From the NCBI GenBank assembly GCA_039028935.1, contig JBCCHD010000012.1, forward strand, positions 1 through 64,000: a DNA stretch of 64,000 nt, written 5' to 3'. The DNA is from Pseudomonadota bacterium. Lineage in GTDB: Bacteria > Pseudomonadota > Gammaproteobacteria > Steroidobacterales > SZUA-146. Below the pieces are notes generated by a model. It was given only the letters and a program-made list of their open reading frames with translations, ran no database searches and was not told the DNA's origin. Position numbers and translations under genes: made by a program. Every line of letters begins with the position of its first letter. Within the stretch, counting starts at the first letter, position 1. Shown here one piece after another: positions 9,600-56,594 of the stretch.

Positions 9600-9610
9600 G
9601 AAGAGCGATC

Positions 9611-12600
9611 ATGGCATACACGTTGGGATGGGCTGTTTCGGCCAACCAGTACAGTGACATAAAAAATGAAGATGGGACTCTTCTGGTGTCAATGAGCTGT
9701 GTAAGGCCGTTCGTGGAACAAACTAACGGGACCGACACGGTATCTGACACCATTGGAAAGATGCGATGGGATGGCCGCGGACCCAAACACGATTCACCTG
9801 ACCTCCCTCCAACAGATCTTCAGTTCTTCTATCCGTGGTTGTGGATGAACGTTACGTGGGTGCTTTGGATTAAGAACGGGAGCACCTGGGAGGCTGGCCC
9901 TGAGCTAGAAATCGTTCCCGGAACGGCAGCATTGAAAGAAGAATGCGTCGATGCGGTAGAAGCGGCGATGAAAGAGGAAATTAAGGAGAAGGTAGAGAAC
10001 TGCCCCTATCCGTTTTCCGGCGCATCCGATGACGCCTATGCAAAACGTGAAGACAGCTTGAAGAATGCGATTAGCCTGGTACATGGTTTGGGCCCGTTAA
10101 GCCAGCTGGTTCCACCGCTTTCCATGCACGTCTTTAAGCAGTCGGTGTTTCTATCGGTACCAGAAATCGACGCGGAAGATGAGGTTCTAGTTGTCGCTGT
10201 TCCACGATTCAACGCAGACGGTCATAGGTTCGACGCGGAAGAAGGAGGCGTTGTCGAGTCGATAGGCGACGACCTGTGCGCCGTGACCTACCCCGGGGCT
10301 GAAGATGGAGAAAATAGGCATGTCTTTTGTATAGAGCCTTTTCGAGCCGACAAGAACGCAACTTCAAAAGCCCCGTCGCTAAAGGCCAAAACCGCCGAAG
10401 ACGCCGAGGCCTTAAAGGCACTTAATATTGGATTGCGCGAATTCGGCGACTGGATGTTACCAGCCAAGATCATGGGCGATGCGGTTCGTTCGAGACTAAC
10501 AAACATTCGCTCTGGAGACACTAGTCCGCTCAGGGATCCCGCAAAGATAACGGACGAGGATGCTGAAAAACAGGAAACCAAGCGAAAGGCAGCAAAGAAG
10601 GCAAAGGAGAAACAAGCAAGATGGCTTGTTGCATGCAGAAAGGCCTGGAAAGATGGCTGGAGAATAATAGAGCAGCGCAACAGTGACAGCCACGTCAGCG
10701 CGTTCATGGCCGATGCGGCGATTACTTCCGAAATTGACGACATGGAAGCGGCGCTAAATTCCGAAGATGAAACCATGGATCATGTCGACGTAGACGTACT
10801 GACCACGATTGGCAACTGGAATGTTGAATCAGTGTACTCAGTAATCGCTGAGTTGCCAAGACTGGAGCTTACGGTTGAGTCCCGGCGATCACTGTTGGAG
10901 CTTAGCGTACGGTTCACCGGTAACGGATGGACAGTTGATAGCGATTGGACTTCTACGGATCAGGTGCCGCGTCCTTACGATCACGTAATCTATTCGGCTC
11001 TCACAGACGAGGAAACCGAGGAGTTAGTAGGCGATGGTTCGTCATTGTACAGTCTATTCGATCTAAAAGGGTGGAGTGCGGGCGACTCGGAGGCCCTGAT
11101 CAAGTCGATTGAGGACGCGGATTCGAATGCCGTGAGACACACCTTTGCGAATACTAGAGAGCTTGTGAACGATGTGCAGCAAGCCTTACCTAAGACCGAC
11201 CCGAGCGGACGAGTCGACGATAGAGATGGAACGGACGCTCTAGTTCGTGCGTTGGATAAATTCCGGGTGGATGATAGCAGGGACCACGTCGCCGTATCTC
11301 TACTGCTGAGCTCGTTGAACATGAAAGTGCAGAGCTATCTGCCCGAAAGGCAAAGCGCTCTAAGAGAGTCACTAAGTGCTCTACGGGAAACACTACTTTC
11401 TTATGTCGACATCCCGACTCAGACTCAGGTACGGCGCTTTGCCATCGGTAACATGGTTGATGATGGGGCGGGAAACGATCTTGAGAGGTTCCGATGGGTT
11501 CGAAACACTGTCGCCAAGACTGTTCCGACAAATAGTGCCGACGAAGGCAGTGATGACAAACCCTGGTACGTGAAGGCGCTCAGCGTTGATGAGGACGCTT
11601 TCGTTGAGGCTTACCGAGACGCGGATCCCGGCGATCGTCCCACGTTGGCCGCCGCAATCGGGGACAGAATAAAAGGTATTAATGGTCTATCGGACGAGGC
11701 AGTTGAACAGTCAACGGCAAAGGCGTTCCGTGAGTACTGCAGGGCGATACAGCGTGAACGACATACCGCAAAGAAGATCGTCGATGAAGGGCTGGACATT
11801 CCTATCTGGAGTATCGAGGACAACCAATCCGTGGAAGACCACAGCCTTCGCGGTGTCGCAATCGCTTTGCGTGCCGAGTTGGATGATCATGTCGAGCCAG
11901 CAAATTGGATTACCGATGCGGAGGTTGCGTTCGTCGAGAAGGGACAGAATGGGAATGCGTCAGATTCGAAGCGTTGGCTTCTCCTCGCAGAACCAAATGA
12001 TGAAGCAGATACCGTCCATACTGCAATAGGATCAGCGACCGTCGCAGCATCTGAAAGTCAAGGTGAAGCAATAGTGGAGATACTCTTCACTGGGACGCCC
12101 GTATGCGCAGCGGCCGGCTTAGGGCAACGAGAAGCAGACAATGTTGAATACGTGAGGTCAACGCAAAAGGTGTCTGGTGAGGATATCGATCGTGACCAGA
12201 CTGCCTGTCTCGACTACGTATGGACGGAAGAAACAGAAGACGGGGATGGGTACAACGGGGTTGGTGAATTGCCGCTACTGGGATTCGGCCTAATGTATCG
12301 CGACGGCCAGGCACTGGTAGACCATGCAGGGCTCGTTCTCACGCCCTCGGCAAGAGATGAGACGTTTCCGGCGCAGTTAAGGAAACCTGCTGATGTCGTC
12401 AAATTGAATCCTGAAGCGCGTCAGTACCTGTCCCATCGCCGACCGGACAGCCCTACTCTGATGATAAGCGATTCAACAGACGCCAAGCATTTCTACGGTG
12501 TTTCCAAGGAAACCAACATGTGGCGGACTCTGGAGGAACGCGGAGAGAATTCGGCCGCAATCGGGTTCATAGTCCCTCAAATAAGGAATGGCGAGGAGTC

Positions 12601-41740: not shown

Positions 41741-44700
41741 CTAACGCAACCGACGTCGACGCCTCGACCGGGTCGCTACGGCCGTGACCATCAACAACGC
41801 GAGCGCCAGCGCGCCGACTGATCCGGATCCGCTAGACGGCGTCGACGAAACGGGCTCCGACACCGGTGCCGGCTGTGGCGCAGCCTGCAAGCGATCCGCT
41901 ATGCCATCGCCGTTGGCGTCGCCAGTTTCGTCCTGATCGGCAACCGAGTCACCGTCAGAGTCGGTATCCTTATAATCCGGTTCGCCATCGCCATCGGTGT
42001 CAACGGGCATCACAGGCGTTCCCGATAGCCCCCCGGACACCGTTGGATCCACCACATCAAGTAGACCATCGAAGTCGCTGTCGCCCAGCGCAACTGTGTC
42101 GATCATCCCATCGTTGTTCGAATCAAGCTCGATGGGCGCGCCCGCTTCTTCGAGGTCGGACACCGAGTCATTGTCACTATCCGTATCCACAAAGTCCGGC
42201 ATGCCGTCGTTATCCACATCGTCTGGTGACACCGTTGGATCAATCGAATCCATGAGACCGTCGCCGTTGGCATCAATCATCATGTCGATCTGGCCATTGG
42301 CGTCTGTATCGAGCCCGCCGTGTCCGCCTTCAATCAAATCCGACACTCCGTCGTTATCCGAATCGAGATCTAGGTAGTTAGGGATACCATCGCCATCGGT
42401 GTCCAGTTCGAATGCACCACCCATCGTTTCGATCGCGTTCGGAATACCGTCATTGTCCGCATCGAGATCGAGTCGATCGTTCACGCCGTCGCCATCAAAA
42501 TCGGTGCCGATGGAAAACACGCCTGGCTGGCCGTCCACCACATCCGGCACACCATCGCCATCCAGATCAGACGCGTCATCAATCGCGCCGTCGCCATCGG
42601 CATCGAAGGCCAACAGACCGACCGTCAGCAAATCAAACTGCCCGTCATTATCGCTGTCGAGATCACGAAAATCGGGCTGATCGGCACCATCGGTGTTGTT
42701 CGGTGCGAGTGTTTCGTTACCGGCATCCACCCTACCGTCACCGTTAGAATCCGGCATACCGGCCTCAACGACATCACTAATGCCGTCGTTGTCGGAATCG
42801 AGGTCGAGGTAGTCTGGACGACCATCGCCATCGGTATCAGTGGGCACGACCGAGTCGTCGACACCGTCTCCATTGAGATCGGGACCACCGGTAACCGATA
42901 CGTCAAAACGGTCGTCAATTCCGTCACCGTCACTGTCCGTGCCGGTACTGTCCGCCTCCACGCGGTCGGTAATGCCGTCTGAATCGCTGTCGGTGACCAG
43001 ATGGTCAGGCAATCCATCGCGATTGGTATCGGCCGGCTGGGTCAGATCGTCTACCCCATCCGCGTTGGCATCGACTCCTCCGGTTTGATCCACATCAAAC
43101 GCATCGTCGATGCCATCGCCATCGCTGTCCTGCCCTGTCAAAGAAGGCATCGCACCGGCTTCGATGGTGTCGGGAATACCGTCGTTGTCACTGTCTGGGT
43201 CAACATAGTCGGCGAGGCCATCACCGTCTGTATCGATCGGTTCGAACGCGTCATCGATACTGTTTGAGTTGACATCGACCCCGCCGGTTTCGTCGACGTC
43301 GACACCATCATCAATACCATCGCCGTCACCGTCCGCGCCCTGCAAAACTGTTAGCGTTGTGAATTCCAGAATATCCGGCAGACCGTCGTTGTCCGCATCA
43401 TCATCAAGAAAATCAGGCGTACCATCACCGTCGGAGTCCACCGGGAATAGGCCGTTACCGCCCGACTCAAGCGCATCCAATATACCGTCGTTATCCGAAT
43501 CCAGATCGAGTCGGTTGGGCAGTCCGTCACCATCCACGTCACCCGATGGTTCAGCGCTATCGAGAATGCCATCGTTGTCATCGTCGGTATCTGACACGTC
43601 GGGGATGCCGTCTCCATCGCTGTCGGTCGTATCAAACTGCGCCGCACCGCCATCGCGCCAGTCGGCCTCACCACCGGATTGAGAGTTGGCGCTTTGGCCA
43701 TCAAGGAATCCGTCGTCCGCCTGGTTATTATTCGTCGCATTCAGCGACGGATTGACACTCGTCGTTCGATCAAACTGATCGAACGCGTCATCCAAGCCAT
43801 CGCCATCGCTGTCTACAGTGGGGCTGGCGTCCACACCGAACGCTTCGGTTGTGTCATCAACTCCGTCCCCGTCTGCATCCAGGCTCAAGTAGTCTGGAAT
43901 GCCGTCGTTGTTTGAATCAACCGGAAGTATGCCGACGCTTGATGCGATACCCGCGCTCAGATCGTCATCAAAGGCATCGTCGAGACCATCGGCGTCAACA
44001 TCTGTCCCAGAGGGCGCCGCATAACCCTCAGAAGACTGAACTTCGATCAGATCAACGATGCCGTCACCGTCTGCATCGATATCGAGAAAATCCGGGTATC
44101 CATCCAAATCGGTGTCGCGTACTTCGGCCTCATCACGAATGCCATTGTTATTGACATCAGTGCCACCGGCATCCGCGTCAAATGCGTCGTCGAGACCGTC
44201 ACTGTCGGTATCGATTCCGATCGCCTCGACAACCAGGCCAGATTCTATTGTATCGAGTACGCCGTCACCGTCTGCATCGACGTCCAGATAGTCTGGCAGA
44301 CCGTCCTGGTCTGTATCGAAATCGCCTTCGATTACATCGGCGATGCCGTCCCCGTCCGCATCACGATCTCGTTGGTCGAGAATGCCGTCCGCGTCTGTGT
44401 CGCGCGACTGAGGACGGCTACCGGACTCTACGGTATCCGTAATGCCATCGTTATCGCTGTCCACATCCACGACGTCAGCGACACCATCTCCGTCAGTATC
44501 GACGGGTCGTATCGCATCATCAATGCCATCGCCATCGCTATCACTGCCATCGGTCATATTCACATCGTAGGCATCATCGATACCGTCATTGTCTTGATCG
44601 CTACCGAGCGAAACACCGTTTTCCAGCGCATCGGGTAAGCCATCGTTATCGCTATCGGTATCCAAATAGTCCGCAATCAAATCGCCATCCGAATCGATCG

Positions 44701-47700
44701 GCATCAGGCGATCCGCGCCCGCCTCAATGTGATCCGGTATGCCATCATCGTCGGCATCACCATCGCGGCGCACGATACGCGCCTCGCCTTCCATACCGTC
44801 GCCGATAGCACCCGTGAATCGGGCATTGACCACTTCCGTCAACGCAAATTGTTGTACGCGGGCCGCTGGAATGGTCACACGCCATGCACCCGACAGGGCA
44901 TTCGTGGTCGTCAGATACGTTTCATCGGCCACCGTGACCGCCACCTCTTCGTTAAATGCATCAACGCTTGTGCCGCTAACGTCCACATCTCGCTCGTCTT
45001 CAATACCATCGATCACGTCGTCCACCGCAATCGGTTCGATCGACAATGACGGCACCGCTTCGGTAATAGTGACGTCAAACGTATCGGTGCCCTGATTACC
45101 TGCGCTATCGGCAATACGCACTTGCAATGTCGTGGTTCCAATCGCCAGATCTTGATCAGGCAGGCATGACCAGCCGTTGGCTTCCGGGTCGGCGATGACA
45201 ACGGCTGTGCAGACGGTTGTCGCGCCGCTCAATACCGTCACCGCTGCGCCCGCATCGGCATCCGTAATGCCTGTGAGCAGTGGGCGCCGATCGTGGGTAG
45301 GCCCAACGTTATTGCCGGTCACGGCTGGCGCCTGCGTATCGATCGACACGGTGAAGGTGGCAACGGCCGTATCCAGATCCGTATCGGTCACGGTTGCTGA
45401 GTAAGTGTTAGTACCCTCCGCCAGCGCTCCCTCGGGGTTACAGGCCCAGGTATTCGGCGAACCGACAGCAATGGTCGCCTCGCAAATCGTGTCGCCTCCC
45501 GCATTGGTCACCGTGACGGTTTCGCCTGCCGCAACACTGGTTGTGCCTTGTAGCAAGGGTTGGGCGTTGTTGGTGAGCGCCACATCTTGCGCCGTAATCG
45601 ACGGCAGCGTCGTATTAATACGCAGTTCGTCAACCGTCGAATCCGTCGCACTGAGCGGCCCGAGCACAACCATCGCCATCACGTCGTACACGCCGTCGGT
45701 TAAGGCGAGCGGCACCGATAACACCCAGGTACCATCGCCATTATCGACCAGACTGCCATCGCCCTCGGTGTAGACGGCGCCATCGAGCGCAACGGACAAC
45801 ACGGTATCCGAATCGTGGGTTCCCATAATGACCGGCATGTCCGAGGCAGCGGTTTGCGCAAACACAACTGGGGTTTGCAGCGCGCGAAAATCGACGTCGC
45901 CTGCACCGTCTGAGTTCGGCAATGTGTCCGGGCCGGCGGCGTTTGAAAAGAAACGCCCATTCACATCAAAGTAGGTATCGGTAAGCTCAATGTCGTCATC
46001 CAGCCCATTGATGCCCACATCGAGCGTATTGAGCGTGATCATGGCTTCCAGCGTATCGAGTTCGCCGTCATTATCCGCATCGGTGTCGGCATAGTCCGGT
46101 ACGTCTGCGCCATCGGTGTTAACCGGCGTCAAACCCGCACCGTACGCGACATTGATGCCGTTCGCGGCCACATCGTATCCGCTAAAGTTGCCCTCATCGA
46201 AAAACGGGGCAACGTAGCCTGCCGTGGTTTGGGCTTCTATGTTGTCCGGAAGGCCATCGTTATCGCTATCGAGATCGAGGAAGTCAGCAATACCATCACT
46301 ATCGCTCTGTACGTCGCCCTCGGTACTGTCCGCGATGCCGTCATTATCACTGTCAAGATCAATATAGTTTGGTACACCGTCGGCGTCAGTGTCGGTGGGC
46401 TCGAACGCATCGTCAATACCGTTGGCGTTCTGATCCGTTCCGCCAGTAATCACCGCATCGATCGCATCGTCGATGTCATTCCCATTCGCATCGCCGGTCG
46501 CTGCCGGCAAAGCCAGACTCATGTCCTCATTACTGTCGCCGATTCGGTCGTTGTCGGCGTCGGTTTCTCGATAATCCAGGTCACCGCCAATAGCCGCATC
46601 GTTGTCCGCGTCCGGCAGGTCGGCCGTCGGCACATTGATGTGTCCATTCACGTCGCCATAGTCGTCGGCAATCTCAGCGTCGTCATCCCAACCATTTCGG
46701 CCCACGTCGAGCACACCGAGGAATACGCCGGCTTCAAACGTATCGGAGATTGTGTCGTCATCGCTGTCGGTATCACGATAGTCGGGTTCGCCAACCGTGT
46801 CGGAGTTAACCGGGGTCAGTCCCTCGTCACCGGCAAACTCATAGTTATTGTCGAGCCCATCGCCATCGGTGTCATCGAGTGCGGGCGCAATATACGTCGC
46901 GCTCAACTGCGCTTCGACGTTATCGGGGATACCGTCGTTATCGCTATCAAGATCGTCACTGTCGGCAACACCGTCACCATCGAAGTCCACGTTACCAACC
47001 GCGTCAAAGTGATCGAACACGACGAGCGCATCGTCGCCCGTGAGCGGCACATGGATGGTCAGCGTAATGCCGGCAGCGATATCCGCGTCAGACACGTGCG
47101 CCTGCAGCGTATACACCGACGTATTGCCCAAGGTAGGGGCACTGCCGGTCAGCTCACCCAGTGGCGTGGTGCCTGCCATAAGGGTGATGCTGAAGTCGGC
47201 CAATTGCGTGAGGCCGAGGCTCGGGAATGACACGTCTAGCGTGAAATCGAACATGCCGGCAACCCAGTTGGTGGTATCGAGTACACCGGTTGCTTCACCA
47301 AACGTATCGCCCAAGCCCACGTCCGAGTTGGACGCAAACAGGTAGTCATCCCCTTCGGTCGCATTGACGCCAAGGGTTCCTGACGAGAAAAAGGACGGGT
47401 CGCGCCACACACTCGAGAACATCAGATCGCCGTCATCAAACGCAGTCGTGTCGACAATTGCCGTTTCGCGCGTATCCAGCAGTCCATCGTTGTCATCGTC
47501 GAGGTCATCGACGCCCGCAACCGAATCGTTGTCGAGGTCTTGAGGATCACGCCAATCGGGTTCGCCTCCCACATTGTCGCTATCTGGAAATGATGCGATG
47601 GGCGTGGCGCTATAGATGCCGTTAACGTCCATATAATCATCACTCGTCTCCATCGTATCGTCGAGCCCGTTGAGCCCCGGCACGAGAGCGCCAAGAACCA

Positions 47701-49897
47701 GCGACGCTTCGGTAGTGTCGCGAATACCGTCAGCGTCGCTGTCCAGATCTTGTGCATCGATCGCCGCATCGCCATCGATGTTACTGGGCACACTGATACC
47801 ACCTGCATAGGCGGTATCGACACCGAAGCCATCAAACGTGTTGTCCGGCGCGAGATAGCCGGTGCTGGTCTGCGCCTCTATATTGTCCGGAATACCGTCA
47901 TTGTCTGAGTCAAGATCGAGATGGTTGGGCACGCCGTCGCCGTCGACATCAAACGGCGACTCCACGGCCCCATCGTCATTGCCGATCCCGCTGTCACCAT
48001 CGTCGTCATCAATGTAGACCTCATAGCCATCAGCATCCGCATCGGCAAACGGTGCAGAAGGCAGCTCGGCGGTATCGAGCATACCGTCGTTGTCGTCATC
48101 CAGATCCGCATCATCATGCACACCATCACCATCGGTATCTGGATTGATCGGCACAAATGCAACGGCGGGTGAACTGGTTGTTGACTGTCCGTCGTCGGTG
48201 ACAGTGATTTCGATTAAACGGGTTTCGCCGTAAAGGTGAGCTGACGTGTTGCGAAACGACACGGACTGAATGAGCTGCTGATATTCCACCAGGGTGCCGT
48301 CGCCAGTAAAGGCAACAACCCAATGACTGTCGACCAGACCGCTCGTGTAGGCAAACACCGTTCCACCGATGTTCACGGTGCCCGAGGCTGCCGCTGAGCC
48401 TTCGACCAGCAGTTCATCGCCTGGAAACTGATTGCTGATTTCGAGTCGCGCTGAATTCAGCGGCGCGGCCACCGGTGCCGCCAGTGTAATCAGCGGATCA
48501 ATGTCCACCACATCCACGTCGCCACCCCCCTCGTCGTAGGTCGCGGCAATAAAGTGCTGACCGGCGATTGTGCTGTTATTGCTGTCCAGATCAAGCGACA
48601 AGAACGCACTGGTGCTGGCGCTGTTGAACGCCAAATCGCCATCTCCATCGTGATAAAAATAACGAACGCCCGTGGCGCTCGCGGCTTGGTATTCCACTGT
48701 CCACGCAGAAACATTGTTCCAATCAAAGCGCACCAAGGAGGTCTGACCACCCGACTCATTCTGCGTGCCCCGCACCACCAGACTCGCGCCAACCACACCC
48801 GATTCCAAGTTGGTGGGTGTATCAAATGTATAGGACGTTAGCGATTGCAGAGCCGGTATTACGGCTTCGATTTGCAACGCCGGAAACGCACTCGCCGACC
48901 CATCGCCATCGATATCAGAGATAGTGAACTGTGGATTCCCGGTCGCCACCACCGCTTGACCTGTCCCGCTTTGGAAAATCTCCCAGCGGATGACCGCCTC
49001 ACCACTGTTTACCTGCACCCAAAGGTCGTCTTCACTGGTACTGAACGACACGGCACCGGCACCGACTCCGCTCGTGTCATTGAACGACACGATCGTTGCC
49101 CGAACGTCGATCGACTCACCGCCGATCGTGCCCGCATTACTCCACAGCGCTGAGTCTCCGGCGGCAAACGGTAAGCTCAGCCCGCTCACATCGGGCTCGC
49201 CGCTTTGCATGCCATCCGATTCGCGGATCGGGTAGTCAATTGGGCTGATGACAAGCGGGGCGAGCACACCCTTCCAAGCGGGGGCCGTCAGCGCCTCGGT
49301 CTGCACAGTCCCGATTCGCGTTTCAAGCACCCAATCTCCACCGAGCTGCGCGGCGCCGGTCAGTGTCGTCGAGGCCGCCACATCCGCGTGGGTGAGCGTT
49401 GCCAGTTTCGATACCAGCGCCTGACCCGACGCGGACGCCGTGAGTTGACAGCCGTAGAGCAGAATATCGGCGTCCTCTGTTAGTGAGTACTGCCATTGAC
49501 TGAGCGATGCGCCATACCCATCGAGCTGCTCGTACGAGAGTCGTGAGTTACCGATCAACAGTGCGCTCTCTACGGCGTGCGACACGATGTGCACGGCGCC
49601 ATAACGCTGTTCGGTACGTGCCAAATAGTCGGTGATCTGGACCAGGCCGGGCCGTTGGTCATCGAGCCATAACACGTCCGTTTGTGGCATCCGCCGCCAA
49701 TCCTCAAGCAGTGCATGCCGATCATTCACCTGCTTATCGATCACGATCAGCACCGGCGCAGCGAGTGGATGCCCACGATCGTGCACGGCATTAGGTGTCA
49801 TCGCTAACGCCACGGTCGACGATACGAAAAATAAGCTCAGGAAGAAAAAGAGACTGGCTCGAATAAGCGTCCCTGGCAGTAAGTGAGTGCGTGTCAT
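41741..49897 (-). CDS. Giant surface protein: DUF4347, calcium repeats, C-terminal sorting tail
   Basis: A protein of 2718 residues. A signal peptide (FFFLSLFFVSSTVALA) leads into a DUF4347 domain at about 47-215 (VHIVSHAVESALLIGNSRLS, LLYGCQLTASASGQ). Beta-rich domains follow to about 580. Then come two long blocks of thrombospondin-type-3-like repeats (DTDGDGVxD, DxDNDGIPD) at about 583-1333 and 1709-2650, each Asp-rich and calcium-binding in known proteins. They are separated by Ig-like domains at about 1425-1690. The C-terminus is a short Ser/Gly stretch, a hydrophobic helix (SVGALALALLMVTAVA) and a RRRRR cluster, like GlyGly-CTERM sorting signals processed by rhombosortase. It is probably an adhesin or biofilm matrix protein at the outer surface. 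A riboswitch and a CRP-type site lie upstream. Confidence 0.88.
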   Translation of the reverse strand: MTRTHLLPGTLIRASLFFFLSLFFVSSTVALAMTPNAVHDRGHPLAAPVLIVIDKQVNDRHALLEDWRRMPQTDVLWLDDQRPGLVQITDYLARTEQRYGAVHIVSHAVESALLIGNSRLSYEQLDGYGASLSQWQYSLTEDADILLYGCQLTASASGQALVSKLATLTHADVAASTTLTGAAQLGGDWVLETRIGTVQTEALTAPAWKGVLAPLVISPIDYPIRESDGMQSGEPDVSGLSLPFAAGDSALWSNAGTIGGESIDVRATIVSFNDTSGVGAGAVSFSTSEDDLWVQVNSGEAVIRWEIFQSGTGQAVVATGNPQFTISDIDGDGSASAFPALQIEAVIPALQSLTSYTFDTPTNLESGVVGASLVVRGTQNESGGQTSLVRFDWNNVSAWTVEYQAASATGVRYFYHDGDGDLAFNSASTSAFLSLDLDSNNSTIAGQHFIAATYDEGGGDVDVVDIDPLITLAAPVAAPLNSARLEISNQFPGDELLVEGSAAASGTVNIGGTVFAYTSGLVDSHWVVAFTGDGTLVEYQQLIQSVSFRNTSAHLYGETRLIEITVTDDGQSTTSSPAVAFVPINPDTDGDGVHDDADLDDDNDGMLDTAELPSAPFADADADGYEVYIDDDDGDSGIGNDDGAVESPFDVDGDGVPNHLDLDSDNDGIPDNIEAQTSTGYLAPDNTFDGFGVDTAYAGGISVPSNIDGDAAIDAQDLDSDADGIRDTTEASLVLGALVPGLNGLDDTMETSDDYMDVNGIYSATPIASFPDSDNVGGEPDWRDPQDLDNDSVAGVDDLDDDNDGLLDTRETAIVDTTAFDDGDLMFSSVWRDPSFFSSGTLGVNATEGDDYLFASNSDVGLGDTFGEATGVLDTTNWVAGMFDFTLDVSFPSLGLTQLADFSITLMAGTTPLGELTGSAPTLGNTSVYTLQAHVSDADIAAGITLTIHVPLTGDDALVVFDHFDAVGNVDFDGDGVADSDDLDSDNDGIPDNVEAQLSATYIAPALDDTDGDGLDNNYEFAGDEGLTPVNSDTVGEPDYRDTDSDDDTISDTFEAGVFLGVLDVGRNGWDDDAEIADDYGDVNGHINVPTADLPDADNDAAIGGDLDYRETDADNDRIGDSNEDMSLALPAATGDANGNDIDDAIDAVITGGTDQNANGIDDAFEPTDTDADGVPNYIDLDSDNDGIADSTEGDVQSDSDGIADFLDLDSDNDGLPDNIEAQTTAGYVAPFFDEGNFSGYDVAANGINVAYGAGLTPVNTDGADVPDYADTDADNDGELDTLEAMITLNTLDVGINGLDDDIELTDTYFDVNGRFFSNAAGPDTLPNSDGAGDVDFRALQTPVVFAQTAASDMPVIMGTHDSDTVLSVALDGAVYTEGDGSLVDNGDGTWVLSVPLALTDGVYDVMAMVVLGPLSATDSTVDELRINTTLPSITAQDVALTNNAQPLLQGTTSVAAGETVTVTNAGGDTICEATIAVGSPNTWACNPEGALAEGTNTYSATVTDTDLDTAVATFTVSIDTQAPAVTGNNVGPTHDRRPLLTGITDADAGAAVTVLSGATTVCTAVVIADPEANGWSCLPDQDLAIGTTTLQVRIADSAGNQGTDTFDVTITEAVPSLSIEPIAVDDVIDGIEDERDVDVSGTSVDAFNEEVAVTVADETYLTTTNALSGAWRVTIPAARVQQFALTEVVNARFTGAIGDGMEGEARIVRRDGDADDDGIPDHIEAGADRLMPIDSDGDLIADYLDTDSDNDGLPDALENGVSLGSDQDNDGIDDAYDVNMTDGSDSDGDGIDDAIRPVDTDGDGVADVVDVDSDNDGITDTVESGSRPQSRDTDADGILDQRDRDADGDGIADVIEGDFDTDQDGLPDYLDVDADGDGVLDTIESGLVVEAIGIDTDSDGLDDAFDADAGGTDVNNNGIRDEAEVRDTDLDGYPDFLDIDADGDGIVDLIEVQSSEGYAAPSGTDVDADGLDDAFDDDLSAGIASSVGILPVDSNNDGIPDYLSLDADGDGVDDTTEAFGVDASPTVDSDGDGLDDAFDQFDRTTSVNPSLNATNNNQADDGFLDGQSANSQSGGEADWRDGGAAQFDTTDSDGDGIPDVSDTDDDNDGILDSAEPSGDVDGDGLPNRLDLDSDNDGILDALESGGNGLFPVDSDGDGTPDFLDDDADNDGLPDILEFTTLTVLQGADGDGDGIDDGVDVDETGGVDVNSNSIDDAFEPIDTDGDGLADYVDPDSDNDGIPDTIEAGAMPSLTGQDSDGDGIDDAFDVDQTGGVDANADGVDDLTQPADTNRDGLPDHLVTDSDSDGITDRVEADSTGTDSDGDGIDDRFDVSVTGGPDLNGDGVDDSVVPTDTDGDGRPDYLDLDSDNDGISDVVEAGMPDSNGDGRVDAGNETLAPNNTDGADQPDFRDLDSDNDGQFDLLTVGLLAFDADGDGAIDDASDLDGDGVPDVVDGQPGVFSIGTDFDGDGVNDRLDLDADNDGIPNAIETMGGAFELDTDGDGIPNYLDLDSDNDGVSDLIEGGHGGLDTDANGQIDMMIDANGDGLMDSIDPTVSPDDVDNDGMPDFVDTDSDNDSVSDLEEAGAPIELDSNNDGMIDTVALGDSDFDGLLDVVDPTVSGGLSGTPVMPVDTDGDGEPDYKDTDSDGDSVADQDETGDANGDGIADRLQAAPQPAPVSEPVSSTPSSGSGSVGALALALLMVTAVATRSRRRRRLR
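41900..48150 (-). repeat. Degenerate Asp-rich repeat coding DNA
   Basis: Two blocks (about 41.9-44.8 kb and 45.9-48.2 kb) encode tens of short calcium-type repeats of about 13 to 40 residues. At DNA level they show recurring words such as CCATCGCCATCG and GTCGTTGTC. The copies have diverged. Long antisense open frames through this region are a by-product of the repeat composition. Confidence 0.7.
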
Positions 49898-49959
49898 GTA
49901 TCGATCCCCGATCGCTTACCGATCCAGGGTCGGATTGGACGACGGAGGCACGTACTGCC

Positions 49960-50067
49960 TGAGCGAATCGTTTCTCGCAATCCCGCGGTCTTAGGCCGAA
50001 ACCCTTAGATCGGTAATTTTGCGCCACCACCTTTCGATGGCTTTGCCCAATAAACTGTATTCACTCA
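49960..50067 (-). promoter_or_regulatory. c-di-GMP-I (GEMM) type riboswitch
   Basis: The minus strand shows the ordered signature of this riboswitch class. GGGCAAAG (50048-50041) is followed by a hairpin CCATC-GAAA-GGTGG with the GNRA tetraloop, then GCGCAAA. A second arm contains the tetraloop-receptor-like CTAAGG and CCTAAG segments and GCGGGATTGCG. The aptamer is closed by a 9-pair helix, TGAGTGAAT (50067-50059) with ATTCGCTCA (49968-49960), plus GTTT/AAAC inside it. The base that is A in the usual GACGCAAAG is G here. It lies about 60 bases before the ATG of the giant surface protein; a hairpin AGGCA-GTACG-TGCCT shares its first base with the closing helix. Confidence 0.78.
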
Positions 50068-50079
50068 CTTACGACGGGG

Positions 50080-50087
50080 GTTGTAAC
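50080..50087 (-). promoter_or_regulatory. Possible extended -10 of the surface-protein promoter
   Basis: The minus strand reads TGTTACAAC, a TGN extension plus TACAAC at 50085-50080. It would start transcription near 50073, just ahead of the riboswitch closing helix. No good -35 element is seen, as expected for a promoter that depends on an activator bound at about -42. Confidence 0.4.
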
Positions 50088-50107
50088 AAAGGTCGGGCAA
50101 TGGAGTA

Positions 50108-50123
50108 TGTGAAATTGTTCACA
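50108..50123 (-). promoter_or_regulatory. CRP/Vfr-type binding site
   Basis: TGTGAAATTGTTCACA is a perfect TGTGA-N6-TCACA palindrome, the core consensus of the cAMP receptor protein. Its centre (50115.5) is about 42 bases from the inferred transcription start near 50073, the position of a class II CRP activator site. Confidence 0.7.
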
Positions 50124-50472
50124 GACGTTCGTCGACAGCGAGAATATCGGTAGATACCCTTAAAAACGACGGGCAGTGGTTTAACTAAATACCGCTTTGC
50201 TGATCGATTGCATTCTCATTGAGCACACCCGCCTCATGGTCTTTGCGCCGAACGCGCACGATAGCTCGCATTAATCGACGCTTGCTCAGGCAGTCCGGTC
50301 GATGAACACACCGACGTTTGGCGCGCCGCTGGGCGATTGCGACCGCGGCTGTTGAGGCAGTGCAAACGACACCCATCTGATCGACGCGGGTTGCGACGCC
50401 TTGGGGGGGCGCGCATAATGGCGCGTTGTCGTTGCGTAGGCACGAAACCAACTTAATTTCTAATTTAGAATA
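50124..50472. other. Intergenic stretch between divergent genes
   Basis: About 350 bases lie upstream of both the surface-protein promoter and the 175-residue hypothetical gene. A minus-strand open frame (50185-50451) has no ribosome site or family resemblance. TAGAAT just before the ATG at 50473 could be a -10 element. Nothing else stands out. Confidence 0.4.
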
Positions 50473-51000
50473 ATGTCAAAAAGCGTTGAAAATAAAGCGA
50501 TTTATGCGGCAGCTTGTCCAGGTATTGAGCACGCACTGGTTGGCGACAGGCGCAGTGTTGATGTCACGGCTTTTCCTTCCGCTGCAGGGAAAGGTGGGTG
50601 GCTGGCGGCCGAAGCGTTGATCCGCAATTTAGCGTGCGATGCCCAGGCGAATGCGGTTACCACGAGTTCAGTCGGCGGAGGGCCTTTGATGGCACGCAAC
50701 GATGAGGGACCGACCCTGAACAGGGGCATCGCCACCCCGGTCGGCCGCCCGGAAACGCAGCAGGCGCCACTGAACCGTGAACCATCGCTCGAGGCGGGTT
50801 TAACGACCTCTACGCTGAACGTCGCCGAGCTGTCGAGACTGCCGCACAAAGATTGGACAGCGGTCGATACCGATGCCGACCGATCGACGTTCGCTATAAC
50901 CCACTACACTGCACAGCTCACTCGCGTCATGATTAATGGCGTCTGGCACCGCGACGAACACGAGCGGGTCATCCACGGGCGAGCTGAACGCCAACACTGA
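50473..51000 (+). CDS. Hypothetical protein, 175 residues
   Basis: I do not recognise this protein. It is soluble, begins MSKSVENKAIYAAACPG, and has a middle segment rich in Thr, Ser, Gly and Pro. The C-terminal part looks more structured (TFAITHYTAQLTRVMINGVW). No good ribosome site precedes the ATG, and an antisense frame also exists, so translation is not certain. It sits 55 bases upstream of cphB on the same strand and could share its transcript. A link to cyanophycin is only positional. Confidence 0.4.
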   Translation: MSKSVENKAIYAAACPGIEHALVGDRRSVDVTAFPSAAGKGGWLAAEALIRNLACDAQANAVTTSSVGGGPLMARNDEGPTLNRGIATPVGRPETQQAPLNREPSLEAGLTTSTLNVAELSRLPHKDWTAVDTDADRSTFAITHYTAQLTRVMINGVWHRDEHERVIHGRAERQH

Positions 51001-51055: not shown

Positions 51056-51877
51056 ATGCCTCCCTCACCTGATCATCCCAAAAGCGATCGCGGCTACATC
51101 ATCCCGATCGGCGGTGCCGAAGAAAAACTCCAAAATCCCGAGATCCTCGATCGTTTTGTTGATCTGTGCGGGGGACCAAGGGGCCGTATCGCCATTATCC
51201 CAACGGCCTCGCAGTTGGAAGACACCGGTAGCAACTATGAAAAGCTGTTTCATCGCCTTGGCATGCGGCACACCATGGTGCTGCCGCTGTTCGAGCGTGC
51301 TGATTGCCAAGACGAACGGTATCTTGAGTACATCAATCGTGCGGATGGCGTGTTCATGACCGGTGGCAATCAATTGCGTTTGTCCACCACGCTTGGCGGC
51401 ACGCCGGTGGCGCAGGCAATTCGTCGACGCAACGCCGCTGGCATGCACGTTGCGGGCACCTCGGCAGGCGCTGCGTTTATGCCCGAGCATATGATCGCCG
51501 GCGGCAAAGAAGGCGCAACGCCCAGTCCAAATAAAGTAACCCTCGCGCCGGGTCTGGGCCTGACCAACAACTTCATCATCGACCAACACTTTCGGCAACG
51601 TGATCGCATCGGCCGACTGCTGACCGCGCTGGCCTACAATCCCTTTGCAATGGGCATCGGACTGGATGAAGACACCGCCGCTTTCATTCGACCCGGCGAC
51701 GATCTGGAGGTCGTCGGATCCGGTGGCATTACGATTATTGATCCGACCAACCTCAGCCATTCGTCGATGGATCAGGCACGTGAAGATGACCCGGTTAGCC
51801 TCATCGACATAAAATTGCATATACTGGTGTCTGGCGGCCGCTTCGAAATCGACACACGCACAGCGCTCGCCGAATAA
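51056..51877 (+). CDS. cphB: Cyanophycinase
   Basis: A serine exopeptidase of family S51, 273 residues, that cuts cyanophycin into beta-Asp-Arg dipeptides in the cytoplasm. Conserved segments are YIIPIGGAEEKLQNPEILDR at the start, RIAIIPTASQ, GVFMTGGNQLRL, and the nucleophile elbow HVAGTSAGAAFMPEHMI with the catalytic Ser near 135. GLGLTNNFIIDQHFRQRDRI and GIGLDEDTAAFI follow. It is directly upstream of cphA on the same strand, so breakdown and synthesis enzymes form one locus. AAGGA lies about 10 bases before the ATG. Confidence 0.95.
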   Translation: MPPSPDHPKSDRGYIIPIGGAEEKLQNPEILDRFVDLCGGPRGRIAIIPTASQLEDTGSNYEKLFHRLGMRHTMVLPLFERADCQDERYLEYINRADGVFMTGGNQLRLSTTLGGTPVAQAIRRRNAAGMHVAGTSAGAAFMPEHMIAGGKEGATPSPNKVTLAPGLGLTNNFIIDQHFRQRDRIGRLLTALAYNPFAMGIGLDEDTAAFIRPGDDLEVVGSGGITIIDPTNLSHSSMDQAREDDPVSLIDIKLHILVSGGRFEIDTRTALAE

Positions 51878-52007
51878 GAATTCGCTGCTCCCTGGGGTGA
51901 GCAAGGCTCCCTCTCGCGTTTTGCCGGCTGGTTTCAGGACGAATCTCAGTCGGTCTCGCCAACACGGCCGGCAGCGTTCGCCGCCAAGTGTCGCCAGGGG
52001 GACAAGA

Positions 52008-54797
52008 ATGCGCATTGTTTCAACCAACGTTTATGTGGGTCCGAACACCTACGCCCATTTTCCGGTTATTCGCCACGTTTTGGATCTTGGCGAACTCGAA
52101 GAATGGCCCACCGGCCGGCTCGGCCCGGCCTTTGTCGAGCCGCTGCTCGAGGCCCTTCCCGGACTGCATGAACATGGCTGTTCGTATCGCGAACCCGGGG
52201 GCTTTGTTAGACGCTTGACCGAAGACGAAGGCACATGGCTCGGCCACGTCATGGAACACGTGGCGATTGAAATGCAAAACGTGGCAGGCATTGAAGTCAC
52301 ATTCGGCCGCACGCGTTCAATAGACGACGCACCGGGTCACTACAACATGGTGTTCGAATACACCGACGACCGGGTTGGCCGCGAAGCCAGCCGCCTCTCT
52401 CTCAATCTGCTTCATCATCTGCTGCCCGATAATCTCCGACCCGCTGACGCACCCGATCGCGATTGGGACTTTGCCAGTGAACGAGACAACTTCATTCGAT
52501 ATGCACAGCGGCGCGCCCTGGGCCCGAGTACCGCCTCGTTGGTCGCGGCGGCCGAGGCGCGCGGCATTCCCTGGCTGCGTCTCAACGATTACAGCCTCAT
52601 ACAATTTGGTCACGGCCGCTACCAAAAACGCATTCAGGCCACCTGCACCGGCAACACCAGCAACATTGCTGTCGAACTCGCCTCCGACAAGGAGGAAACC
52701 AACGTGATCTTGCGTGACCTTGGCCTGCCAGTGCCTCAGCAATATCTTGTTCGTACCGAAAGTCGCGCGCGACGGGCCGCGGAACGCATCGGCTATCCAG
52801 TGGTGGTCAAACCACTTAACGCCAATCATGGGCGCGGTGTGTCGATCAATCTCAGTACCGCTGACGAAGTCGGCGTGGCCTTCGCGAAGGCGCAGGAGCA
52901 CAGCCGCTCGGTGCTCGTCGAGAGTTTTATTCAGGGACTGGATCATCGGTTGCTGGTGGTCAACGACGAACTCGTCGCGGCGGCCAAACGCATGCCCGGA
53001 CATGTTCGGGGGGATGGCAAACACAGCATCGAACAACTGGTTGACATAGTTAACCAAGATCCCCGGCGCGGTGTCGGTCACGAAAAAGTGCTGACGCGAC
53101 TAGAGTTTGATCATCAAGCCGAGCGCTTATTGGCCCAAGTTGGCTACACGCGTGACACCGTCCCCGCTGACGACGAAGTGGTGTTCCTACGATCAACCGC
53201 CAATCTATCAACAGGTGGAACGGCCATTGATGTAACCGATTCGGTCCATCCGGACATTCGCGAGATGGCTATACGCACCATCCGCGCCATCGGTCTTGAT
53301 GTCGGTGGCGTCGACTTCCTTACGGACGACATTACCAAGTCGTACCGCGAAACCGGTGGCGCCATTTGCGAAGTCAACGCTGGACCTGGTTTTCGTATGC
53401 ACGTCGCACCCAGCGAGGGCACTCCGCGCGACGTGGCGGGCCCGGTAATCGAAGGACTGTTTCCAAGCGGCTCACCCAGTCGCATTCCCATCGCGGCCGT
53501 CACAGGTACGAACGGCAAAACCACAACGTCTCGCATGCTGGCCCACATTCTCAAGCTGAGCGGCATGACTGTTGGTCTGACTTCCACTGATGGTGTGTAT
53601 ATCGACGGAAAACTCTCGGTACCGGGTGACATGACCGGTCCTATTTCTTCGCGCATGGTACTACGCGACCCCGCCGTCGACGCGGCGGTGCTCGAATGCG
53701 CACGCGGCGGCATGCTGCGAGGCGGCCTGGGTTTCTCAGAATGCAATGTGGCCACGTGCCTGAATGTCGCCGCCGACCATCTCGGCCTCCGCGGCATCAA
53801 TACGCTCGAGCAACTGGCTGAAATTAAACGCGTACCGGTGGAAATTGCTAAAGACGCCGTTGTTCTTAATGCGGATGATCCACATTGCCTCAAGATGGCC
53901 GACTACACCGACGCGAAAAAAGTATGCTACGTCACGATGAATGCATCGCATCCTCTGGTGAAACAACACATCCAGGCTGGCGGTCAAGCGTTTGTGCTGG
54001 AACAGGCAATGCAGGGACATATGATCACCATTTACGATGGTGACACGCACATCCCGTTGCTGTGGACGCACCTGATCCCGGCCACCGTCGAAGGAAAAGC
54101 CATGCACAATGTGCAAAACGCCATGGTCGCTGCGGCGCTCGCTTACAATATGGACATCAATCTGACCAATATTCAGCAGGGTCTTCGCACCTTTGACACC
54201 TCTTTCTTCCAGGCCCCAGGCCGCATGAACATTTACGATGAACATGCGTTCAAGGTAATTCTGGATTACGCGCACAACCCAGCCGCCGTCAACGCCATCT
54301 GCGACTTGGTGTCTCGCTTTGAGATCAAGGGCATCAAACGCGTTGTGCTGGCCGCACCCGGGGATCGTCGCGACCAGGATATCGAAGAAATCGCGCGTCT
54401 AGCGGCGCCGCACTTCGACCAATTTATCTGTCGACGCGATGACAATCTACGCGGTCGTGATCGCGACGCGGTACCGTTGATGCTCAAGCGCACCTTACTC
54501 GACTGCGGCGTAGACGAGGATCGCATTCAGATGGTGCCTGATGAAGTCGAAGCCACCCAAGCCGGACTGGAATCCTGCCAGCCCAATGATCTGCTTTTGA
54601 TATTGGGCGACAATATTCAGCGCACGTGGAAGCAGATTATTTATTTTGACAGTGATCACGACACCGGCACGCGCGACGCCAGCGCGCCGATCACCGTCGC
54701 GGCGCTGCCCAATGACTTGGGATTCGACCTCAACACGGAGGTGGAGGTCATTCAAGACGAGCGTGGTGTGCGACTTGCGCGCGAAGCCGGTGACTAA
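52008..54797 (+). CDS. cphA: Cyanophycin synthetase
   Basis: A protein of about 929 residues that builds multi-L-arginyl-poly-L-aspartate, a nitrogen store, from Asp, Arg and ATP. Three parts are visible. The N-terminal domain (about 1-160) contains WLGHVMEHVAIEMQ. The ATP-grasp domain contains DLGLPVPQQYLV and GYPVVVKPLNANHGRGVSI (about 225-480) and adds Asp. The Mur-ligase-type domain carries VTGTNGKTTTSRMLAHIL near 497 and ILDYAHNPAAV near 750 and adds Arg. The ATG at 52008 has AGGGGGA upstream and gives the normal N-terminus MRIVSTNVYVGPN; 37 extra codons upstream look untranslated. It follows cphB by 130 bases. Confidence 0.95.
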   Translation: MRIVSTNVYVGPNTYAHFPVIRHVLDLGELEEWPTGRLGPAFVEPLLEALPGLHEHGCSYREPGGFVRRLTEDEGTWLGHVMEHVAIEMQNVAGIEVTFGRTRSIDDAPGHYNMVFEYTDDRVGREASRLSLNLLHHLLPDNLRPADAPDRDWDFASERDNFIRYAQRRALGPSTASLVAAAEARGIPWLRLNDYSLIQFGHGRYQKRIQATCTGNTSNIAVELASDKEETNVILRDLGLPVPQQYLVRTESRARRAAERIGYPVVVKPLNANHGRGVSINLSTADEVGVAFAKAQEHSRSVLVESFIQGLDHRLLVVNDELVAAAKRMPGHVRGDGKHSIEQLVDIVNQDPRRGVGHEKVLTRLEFDHQAERLLAQVGYTRDTVPADDEVVFLRSTANLSTGGTAIDVTDSVHPDIREMAIRTIRAIGLDVGGVDFLTDDITKSYRETGGAICEVNAGPGFRMHVAPSEGTPRDVAGPVIEGLFPSGSPSRIPIAAVTGTNGKTTTSRMLAHILKLSGMTVGLTSTDGVYIDGKLSVPGDMTGPISSRMVLRDPAVDAAVLECARGGMLRGGLGFSECNVATCLNVAADHLGLRGINTLEQLAEIKRVPVEIAKDAVVLNADDPHCLKMADYTDAKKVCYVTMNASHPLVKQHIQAGGQAFVLEQAMQGHMITIYDGDTHIPLLWTHLIPATVEGKAMHNVQNAMVAAALAYNMDINLTNIQQGLRTFDTSFFQAPGRMNIYDEHAFKVILDYAHNPAAVNAICDLVSRFEIKGIKRVVLAAPGDRRDQDIEEIARLAAPHFDQFICRRDDNLRGRDRDAVPLMLKRTLLDCGVDEDRIQMVPDEVEATQAGLESCQPNDLLLILGDNIQRTWKQIIYFDSDHDTGTRDASAPITVAALPNDLGFDLNTEVEVIQDERGVRLAREAGD

Positions 54798-54878
54798 CCG
54801 GTGCCGCACACGGCCATCGTTGTGCGAATGCATTGACGCGTTCGGCACACTAGCGACCCTTACGTCACAAGGCATTTC

Positions 54879-56594
54879 ATGGAAAAACTGGACGCTCGAC
54901 GCCTGACTGGCATCAACGTAATCTGGCAACATCCGGGCGCGGTAGTGGATGTTCGGTTGGATCCAAACGACGACGCGGACGCGGTCGCCGATCAATGGGC
55001 GATCCAGGCGCGCCGCTTTCTCGACGCCCTCGGCTGGTCCCATCCGGTGTGCAGTCATCGCCTACATTCCGGCGTTGCTCTGGCGCTGGCCGCCCCGATG
55101 GATGCGCTGTACAGTGCGGTCGAAGCGGCCGAATGGGTGTTTGGCGAAGTTGCCTTTTCACTCACGGGAATGCGTCCGGTTATCTATGATGAGAATGATG
55201 AGGCGGTGCCGCATCGCGAATTCGACGAGATGGTGTCGCACGTTAAGCGGGCGATCGCCGATGAGTGCAATCCCGCACTTCAACGTGTGCTCACGACACA
55301 GCCCGTCAACGCGACCGTGCTCATCGACGATGATGAAATATCGGTCGGCCTGGGGCGCTACGCAACAACTTGGCCTGTTGATGCCCTGCCCGAGACGATC
55401 GATTGGTCTTCAGCGCGCCGTATCCCGGTTGGCTTGGTCACCGGCACCAACGGCAAAACAACGACGGTGCGATTAACTCAGCGGATGCTGCGTGCGGCCG
55501 GCAATCGTGTCGGCATCAGCTCAACCGACTGGATTGGCGTGGATGACACGATCATTGATCGGGGCGATTATTCCGGTCCGGGCGGCGCACGCGCCGTATT
55601 GCGTCAGAATATAGACACCGCGGTGCTCGAAACAGCGCGCGGTGGCTTACTGCGTCGCGGCCTCGGCATGCCGCGGGCCGACGCCTCGCTGATCACGAAC
55701 ATTGCCGAAGATCACCTGGGCGATTTTGGCTCCGAGAATTTAGACGAACTGCTCGATTTGAAGTGGATTGTCACGCGCGCGCTCGACACGCAATCCGTTG
55801 CGATCTTAAACGCGGATGACCCGCTGTTGGTTGCCAAAGCCTCCGAACTGTCGGTGCCGCTATGCTGGTTCGGGCTCGAGCCAGATGCCGACCCCATACG
55901 CGCGCACATCGCCAATGCGCAACCGGTGGTGACGGTGAAGGACAACGTATTCTGCCGTTTCGACGGCAACACGTGGCGAACCTTGTGCGCCATTGACGAA
56001 GCACCCATAACCGTTGGAGGCAGCGCGCGTCACAACGTCGCCAATAGTCTGGCTGCCATAGCCCTTGCCCATTTTTTAGGGGCCGACGACGAGTCCATTG
56101 TGAGCGGCTTGCAGAGTATGCAACCTAATGACAACCCGGGTCGCTGCAATTTCTTTTCGGTCAACGGCGTCGATGTGTTGCTGGATTTTGCCCATAATCC
56201 CAGTGCGATGCAGGCTATTTTTGACATTGCGCGTAGTCACCCTGCCCAGCGACGGTTGCTGTGTTTCGGGCAAGCTGGCGACCGCACGGACGATTCGATT
56301 CGGGAGCTAGCACAACTCGCTTGGGCCATTGGACTTGACCATGTCTGCGTTTCTGAACTCGGCGACTACCGTCGAGGCCGTGCGCCGCAGGAAGTGTTTC
56401 ACTTACTGAAGGAAGGACTCCTGTCCGCCGGAGCGCAAGAACATCAAATTTCGCACCACGAACGCGAACGTGAGTCGCTGGATCATGCCCTTCATCTGGC
56501 GCACGAGGGCGACCTTATTATCATGATTGCGCTGGGCGAAGCACGCGCCCTGCTTGAGTGGCTAAATAGCTATCCCTCGGCGTCGATCGCTTGA
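54879..56594 (+). CDS. Stand-alone Mur-ligase-type protein linked to cyanophycin
   Basis: A protein of 571 residues. The first 175 residues form an unfamiliar domain (INVIWQHPGAVVDVRLDPN, LGWSHPVCSHRLHSGVAL). The rest is a Mur ligase closely resembling the C-terminal half of cyanophycin synthetase: VGLVTGTNGKTTTVRLTQRM near 188, AVLETARGGLLRRGLG, LILNADDP-like VAILNADDP, and VDVLLDFAHNPSAMQ near 430. It has no ATP-grasp domain, so it cannot be a complete synthetase. It probably adds an amino acid to a peptide or to cyanophycin, or modifies it. It lies 81 bases downstream of cphA on the same strand. Confidence 0.82.
   Translation: MEKLDARRLTGINVIWQHPGAVVDVRLDPNDDADAVADQWAIQARRFLDALGWSHPVCSHRLHSGVALALAAPMDALYSAVEAAEWVFGEVAFSLTGMRPVIYDENDEAVPHREFDEMVSHVKRAIADECNPALQRVLTTQPVNATVLIDDDEISVGLGRYATTWPVDALPETIDWSSARRIPVGLVTGTNGKTTTVRLTQRMLRAAGNRVGISSTDWIGVDDTIIDRGDYSGPGGARAVLRQNIDTAVLETARGGLLRRGLGMPRADASLITNIAEDHLGDFGSENLDELLDLKWIVTRALDTQSVAILNADDPLLVAKASELSVPLCWFGLEPDADPIRAHIANAQPVVTVKDNVFCRFDGNTWRTLCAIDEAPITVGGSARHNVANSLAAIALAHFLGADDESIVSGLQSMQPNDNPGRCNFFSVNGVDVLLDFAHNPSAMQAIFDIARSHPAQRRLLCFGQAGDRTDDSIRELAQLAWAIGLDHVCVSELGDYRRGRAPQEVFHLLKEGLLSAGAQEHQISHHERERESLDHALHLAHEGDLIIMIALGEARALLEWLNSYPSASIA

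Follow-up and report, generated by a model that had tools for sequence, protein, structure and literature searches.

A c-di-GMP-I riboswitch aptamer with a predicted translational expression platform ahead of a giant DUF4347 repeat protein in a gammaproteobacterium

The leader of the gene for a 2718-residue, probably secreted protein contains a c-di-GMP-I (GEMM) aptamer, which comprises P2 and P3 with the ligand pocket and lies at 49973..50057 on the minus strand of the window, that is, of the whole 64,000-nucleotide stretch of DNA analyzed here. We estimate at roughly 0.7 the probability that this riboswitch acts on the translation start of the giant protein, in whichever direction. If control is indeed exerted at that step, the modelled folds incline us to the view that c-di-GMP turns the gene off.

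The identity of the element is clear from the covariance model of the family. RF01051 matched the minus strand at 50057-49973 with 62.0 bits against a gathering score of 35, in agreement with the original prediction of a c-di-GMP-I riboswitch. When the whole window was searched with 4227 Rfam families, this match had an E-value of 1e-9, far past chance, and a tRNA was the sole further match above its gathering score. RF01051 was retained over the other members of its clan, with c-di-GMP-I-GGC (RF03167) not being the better match, and the position equivalent to G20 is a G and not the A of cGAMP-type GEMM RNAs. The ordered motifs proposed from the letters alone are all found on this strand, namely GGGCAAA (50048-50042), a GAAA loop (50035-50032) capping a P2 of six pairs, GCGCAAA (50024-50018), CTAAGG (50008-50003) and CCTAAG (49995-49990). 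Both the GAAA tetraloop in P2 and the CTAAGG/CCTAAG arm that makes up the receptor in P3 are present, their docking being a prediction, and P3 includes one A-C mismatch. The proposed closing helix is also found, with the same outer ends: the 5' strand of the outer P1, UGAGUGAAU (50059..50067, minus strand), forms nine pairs, one of them G-U, with the 3' strand, AUUCGCUCA (49960..49968, minus strand). The aptamer ends 75 nt before the ATG at 49897, in the same orientation as the gene. The covariance model, the kept ligand contacts described below and this spacing uphold the placement of a riboswitch ahead of the 2718-residue protein.

The aptamer structure was further supported by covariation in a set of 34 aptamers, 5 of them from this genome and 29 from 26 relatives, which represent the best-scoring matches with a locus supplied and not a random draw. 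In this set, 97.5% of 709 cells were paired, two-sided changes were seen at 13 of the 21 pairs, and none of 500 shuffles equalled the observed values on any of five measures. The genome (96.9% complete) contains five GEMM aptamers above the cut-off, and such aptamers were identified in 27 of the 39 genomes of the relatives search, with the own genome counted, as compared to none of 14 control genomes. The four other aptamers precede genes whose products have 1355, 2812, 178 and 450 aa, the last of these being lipoprotein-like. Hence, three of the five stand ahead of giant (1355-2812 aa), repeat-rich secreted proteins of differing make-up. The two sibling giants (1355 and 2812 aa) have TSP3_bac (PF18884) and an NCBIfam choice-of-anchor U domain above the cut-off, as well as kelch matches that are mostly below it, and both finish in a Gly-rich, hydrophobic, Arg-rich tail. 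Judging by eye from N-terminal sequences, aptamers also precede counterparts of all four genes in the relative G001 and of two kinds in G002.

Two further observations concern GEMM aptamers in the relatives. In the leaders of kelch-like giants (L006, L008, L053 and L055), an inverted repeat of the type TCATTTGATC/GATCAAATGA was seen by eye immediately 5' of the start codon, possibly the start-masking hairpin of that GEMM-linked family. Separately, GEMM aptamers of 110-114 nt with a closely similar extended P3 arm occur many times per genome before varied genes in G007, G010, G021, G034 and G005 (L116-L132). The best model was RF03167 (c-di-GMP-I-GGC) for three of four such loci tested and RF01051 for the fourth, and GEMM matches of all lengths number 21 in G007 and 15 in G010.

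The direct ligand contacts are kept. In the RF01051 alignment, with the contact numbers of Vc2 assigned to the model positions that we take to correspond, the equivalents of G20, A47, A48 and C92 are G 50047, A 50020, A 50019 and C 49977. Passages of PMC3764141 describe these four as key contacts, and G20, A47 and C92 are named as contacts also in a section of PMC4744006. The equivalents of A18 and C93 are altered, to U and G, respectively. More generally, U is found at model positions 8 and 9, next to the pocket, where 29 of the 34 aptamers have A at each, and G is found at model position 84, where 32 of the 34 have C; the usual A (A18, before GG) is missing in 4 further aptamers of the set. 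With U for A twice beside the pocket and G for C at the C93 equivalent, the aptamer may bind c-di-GMP less tightly than Vc2 does, and the apex pair G14-C93 may have been replaced by U-G. The same changes, along with the A-C mismatch in P3 and a score that is the second lowest among the five of the genome, could point to a degenerate or weakly binding GEMM RNA that has lost a strong response. We consider this improbable, since 62 bits is well over the threshold, neither the direct contacts nor the GAAA loop has been lost, the G14-C93 pair may simply be swapped for U-G, and long competing helices would be odd for a relic.

These competing helices are a conspicuous feature of the leader, in which the nine-pair P1, an anti-P1 and an anti-P3 represent mutually exclusive long helices within a short distance (all on the minus strand). 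In anti-P1, the strand GUAAGUGAGUG (50062..50072), which overlaps the 5' strand of P1, forms 11 Watson-Crick pairs with CACUCACUUAC (49879..49889), located inside the open reading frame at codons 3-7 (+8 to +18, with the A of AUG as 0). In anti-P3, the 5' arm of P3, UUACCGAUCUA (50006..50016), doubles as the 5' strand of a helix of 11 pairs, one of them G-U, with UGGAUCGGUAA (49916..49926), and the extended duplex has an energy of -24.3 kcal/mol. A Watson-Crick helix of at least 11 pairs arose in 3 of 1000 dinucleotide shuffles and the anti-P1 11-mer has three copies in the 4.1-Mb genome, two of which are the anti-P1 arms themselves, inverted, with their starts separated by 183 nt; both numbers are post hoc, obtained after the helix had been noticed. 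The 11-mer pattern read backwards occurs once in the genome, and within the window the 11-mer is found only at the two arms, even with one mismatch tolerated. When G-U pairs were allowed, 280 of 1000 dinucleotide shuffles had one helix of at least 11 pairs and 46 had two, so that the length of anti-P3 is by itself unremarkable. In the folding model, P1 yields to anti-P3 once the transcript reaches 19 nt before the AUG. The leader was not seen in the relatives searched, which leaves the platform without covariation: of seven genomes compared with an 801-base query, G001 and G002 yielded nothing, and the stretches matched in G017 (43 bases, within an aptamer) and G009 (31 bases) were short.

The clearest difference between the two folds is seen at the Shine-Dalgarno site. 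This site, GGGG (49906..49909, minus strand), is located 8 nt before the AUG and does not match the canonical AAGGAGGU string; its duplex with what we take to be the anti-Shine-Dalgarno sequence has an energy of -8.5 kcal/mol. With the aptamer and P1 fixed, as in the bound fold, folding predicted a masking hairpin at 49902..49932 (minus strand) of -15.2 kcal/mol, of which UGGAUCGGUAA is a part. In the free fold, anti-P3 takes the other arm of this hairpin, which leaves just a hairpin of -2.9 kcal/mol at the site. The cost of opening the site was 3.6-6.3 kcal/mol in the free fold versus 10.5-11.9 kcal/mol in the bound fold across 12 combinations of transcript ends. For the standard transcript the bound fold exceeded the free fold by 8.3 kcal/mol. 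Shuffling the segment from P1 to the Shine-Dalgarno site 300 times never gave so large a difference (mean 0.9, sd 2.0), although equally strong masking in the bound fold arose in 12 of the 300 cases. When P2 and P3 were constrained and P1 was left free, the difference dropped to 3.6-4.5 kcal/mol.

We also surveyed the other GEMM leaders, starting from 34 rows of which 2 were dropped because they had no start, and with starts that were set by a heuristic and are unchecked. In the 31 other leaders the difference ranged from -2.4 to 4.6 kcal/mol and was mostly near zero, with one of the 31 also reaching the 3.6-4.5 kcal/mol of the window's leader. Since most of the 31 show zero effect at the Shine-Dalgarno site, the survey method yields no platform for most other leaders. 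The opening difference is our best evidence for a ligand-dependent platform, and as a folding result it predicts repression by c-di-GMP. Opening the whole region from -15 to +15 costs 12.3-19.2 kcal/mol in the free and 16.8-19.1 kcal/mol in the bound fold, overlapping ranges in which the bound fold is the cheaper one in 2 of the 12 combinations. An energy model that scores neither the ligand nor tertiary contacts puts the free fold ahead by 10.8-15.2 kcal/mol, and the observed gap of 13.1 kcal/mol is uninformative because 238 of 300 shuffles give at least that much.

On the repressing scheme, to which we give some preference provided that control is at translation start, c-di-GMP would bind the aptamer during transcription, so that P1 and P3 remain formed. 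The segment 49932-49920 would then be free to fold onto the GGGG-bearing stretch, and initiation would be blocked. Without c-di-GMP, the 5' arm of P3 would pair with 49926-49916 and thereby occupy one arm of the masking hairpin, making the Shine-Dalgarno site and the AUG easier to reach, while the 5' strand of P1 would pair with codons 3-7 and prevent the aptamer from forming again. One feature argues against this direction: in the free fold, the 11 pairs over codons 3-7 would be expected to impede initiation in their own right.

The original prediction held that control of an adhesin-like protein by c-di-GMP fits biofilm logic, which presumes activation. A translational ON switch would indeed match that logic, with the protein made at high c-di-GMP: the free fold would lock codons 3-7 and hold the Shine-Dalgarno site in a small hairpin, and c-di-GMP would stabilize P1 and release the start region. 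The 11 Watson-Crick pairs between 50072-50062 and 49889-49879, which shuffles matched in only 3 of 1000 cases and whose 11-mer is found three times in the genome, are consistent with such a lock. In addition, Vc1, which precedes gbpA, is described in parts of PMC4744006 as an ON switch, and surface proteins are among the c-di-GMP riboswitch targets already reported in excerpts of the literature. On the other side, the Shine-Dalgarno site is masked more strongly in the bound than in the free fold, and the AUG is open in the free fold, with an opening cost of 0.4-2.5 kcal/mol. The lock on codons 3-7 and the masking of the Shine-Dalgarno site thus point in opposite directions; we lean towards repression and away from the biofilm argument, and rate the ON switch as possible and as the less likely direction. 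There is a slim chance that both locks operate, as in a band-pass riboswitch. The free fold would then seal codons 3-7 and the bound fold would mask the Shine-Dalgarno site, such that protein is made only at mid-range c-di-GMP or during the switch between folds, and ribosomes crossing codons 3-7 would release the P1 strand and allow the aptamer to sense again.

An intrinsic terminator as the expression platform was rejected for the region searched, since no terminator-like site was found on either strand at 49700-50600, where 1.3 were expected from shuffles. This absence is compatible with control acting chiefly on mRNA stability or by Rho-dependent termination within the leader instead of on initiation, modes that exist among riboswitches according to passages of PMC5234074. 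We think this unlikely, given that the masking of the Shine-Dalgarno site exceeds that of shuffles (0 of 300).

Control at translation start, our preferred reading, has several parallels. Vc2 of Vibrio cholerae reportedly represses translation by masking a distant ribosome-binding site, as stated in the title of Inuzuka et al. 2018. It shares with the element studied here the aptamer family, the key contacts and, as predicted here, repression through masking of a distant ribosome-binding site. It differs in that the platform modelled here adds an anti-P1 helix reaching codons 3-7, in the downstream gene, and in the changed equivalents of A18 and C93. Vc1 (gbpA) of the same species is likewise a GEMM aptamer ahead of an attachment gene, and it is described in sections of PMC4744006 as having no apparent anti-Shine-Dalgarno sequence, whereas a masking element is predicted here; writing in 2016, its authors considered the Vc1 mechanism unclear and that of Vc2 unknown (PMC4744006, in part). 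In Bacillus thuringiensis, c-di-GMP-I riboswitches precede a chemotaxis gene (Bc1, mcpE) and a collagen-adhesion gene (Bc2, cap), according to parts of PMC11218506 and PMC4933901. The ribosome-binding site and AUG of Bc1 enter a stem-loop with ligand (PMC11218506, in part); Bc1 has two intrinsic terminators, in contrast to none found here at 49700-50600. The thiC TPP riboswitch of E. coli, as far as passages of PMC5234074 describe it, has a long-range anti-P1 stem that bars ligand binding while the start site is exposed. By analogy, the anti-P1 of the ligand-free state may be read in that way here, with a different ligand and aptamer and with an anti-P1 partner inside the coding sequence. The likely expression platform of this leader is a new proposal.

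The downstream gene is an open reading frame of 2718 aa at 41741..49897 on the minus strand, counted from the most upstream ATG in frame. Its start, judged by eye, looks like a signal peptide, which suggests that the protein is probably secreted. The original prediction of an adhesin-like calcium-repeat protein draws its support from the repeats. Big_13/Ca_tandemer matches are present, with Ca_tandemer (NF033510) at 72 versus 50 bits, the Asp content is 18.6%, and a regular expression found 58 copies of the motif D-x-[DN]-x-[DN]-G-x-x-D between residues 587 and 2660. We take this motif to be the TSP3-like form, and "TSP3-like" is our own label for the protein because the matches listed at E 1e-3 do not include TSP3_bac (PF18884). 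The hydrophobic, Arg-rich C-terminal tail scored just under the cut-off for MYXO-CTERM (17.8 versus 20 bits) and no GlyGly-CTERM model was listed at E 10. At another locus, the genome encodes a rhombosortase (143.5 versus 84 bits).

The description as an adhesin fits the N-terminal part less well, since this domain resembles a caspase-like protease fold. Residues 50-204 (49256-49765, minus strand) match DUF4347 (PF14252) with 152.8 bits against a cut-off of 24.6. All 14 sequences of alignment A1, from which the partial domain L075 was excluded, have His107 and Cys150; in alignment A3 the Cys is invariant and the His is replaced by Tyr in 3 of 8 sequences. A structural model built with 8 sequences had a mean pLDDT of 75.8 and a pTM of 0.76, with residues 135-170 under 50. 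It resembled the Tce1 effector domain (Z 14.5, rmsd 2.9, 159 residues) and a CHAT domain (Z 9.7, rmsd 3.6, 140 residues), as well as caspases and legumain at Z 7-8, where matches at Z <8 were not used alone. Foldseek gave four PDB matches at E <=0.001, including a flavoprotein and an aminotransferase, and families beyond those listed may resemble the domain as well. On this basis we predict that DUF4347 adopts a clan CD fold of the caspase type, with the His and Cys as a pair. Tce1 is PA0256 of P. aeruginosa, a DUF4347 protein and putative cysteine protease according to parts of PMC8262886 and PMC13323088. It has in common with the protein studied here the DUF4347 domain, a similar predicted fold and the His and Cys; the difference is that the domain here makes up the N-terminus of a probably secreted repeat protein of 2718 aa. 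Because of the predicted fold and the His/Cys pair, this surface protein may process itself or cut other proteins and may not be a plain adhesin.

The pairing of DUF4347 with an aptamer was seen only in this genome and is, as far as seen, not conserved. DUF4347 was identified in 15 of 396 genomes of an order sample and in 48 of 369 genomes of a class sample, with the own genome counted in both. On the stretches scanned, aptamers were absent from all 51 further DUF4347 loci (14 of the order sample, 7 of genome contigs and 30 of the class sample), and a conserved pairing with GEMM was rejected on this basis; of the 52 loci scanned, only that of the window has one (1/15, 0/7, 0/20 and 0/10). The 30 loci of the class sample were taken from 57 matches listed, own included, and the 7 genome-contig loci may duplicate a genome of the other sets. 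For the order and class loci, the stretches cover about 1.5 kb beside the domain and some end at contig ends; for domains that are not N-terminal, they may miss the leader. Among repeat proteins, the relative on contig C20 (frame of 3106 aa) has no aptamer in the 14-kb stretch scanned, and the leader of the protein's relative in G001 is out of view because the contig end cuts that relative at C20:15301. A GEMM aptamer near a repeat protein at G017:C16:72962-73047 was rejected as a candidate, as it precedes a different gene. The full-length protein (query P0001) had no relative on the genome contigs. The literature matches listed, seen in part, include none that joins DUF4347 with a riboswitch, the DUF4347 papers being concerned with other matters by title; for TSP3, sorting-tail or kelch proteins with a c-di-GMP riboswitch, the nearest among the partial matches listed is a myxosortase paper.

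Elsewhere in the window, the plus strand beside the riboswitch (51056-56594) encodes a cyanophycinase, a cyanophycin-synthetase-like protein and a second Mur-ligase-like protein, likely a cyanophycin operon judging from the gene content. Two adjoining giant open reading frames of 2058 and 1899 aa are located at 3423-15310 (plus strand), with zero Pfam matches at E 1e-5.

Taken together, the leader provides a platform model, concrete enough to be tested, for a c-di-GMP-I riboswitch from outside the genus Bacillus. It cautions against assuming that a surface protein under c-di-GMP control is switched on at high c-di-GMP, in a genome where GEMM aptamers stand ahead of three giant, repeat-rich secreted proteins of differing make-up.
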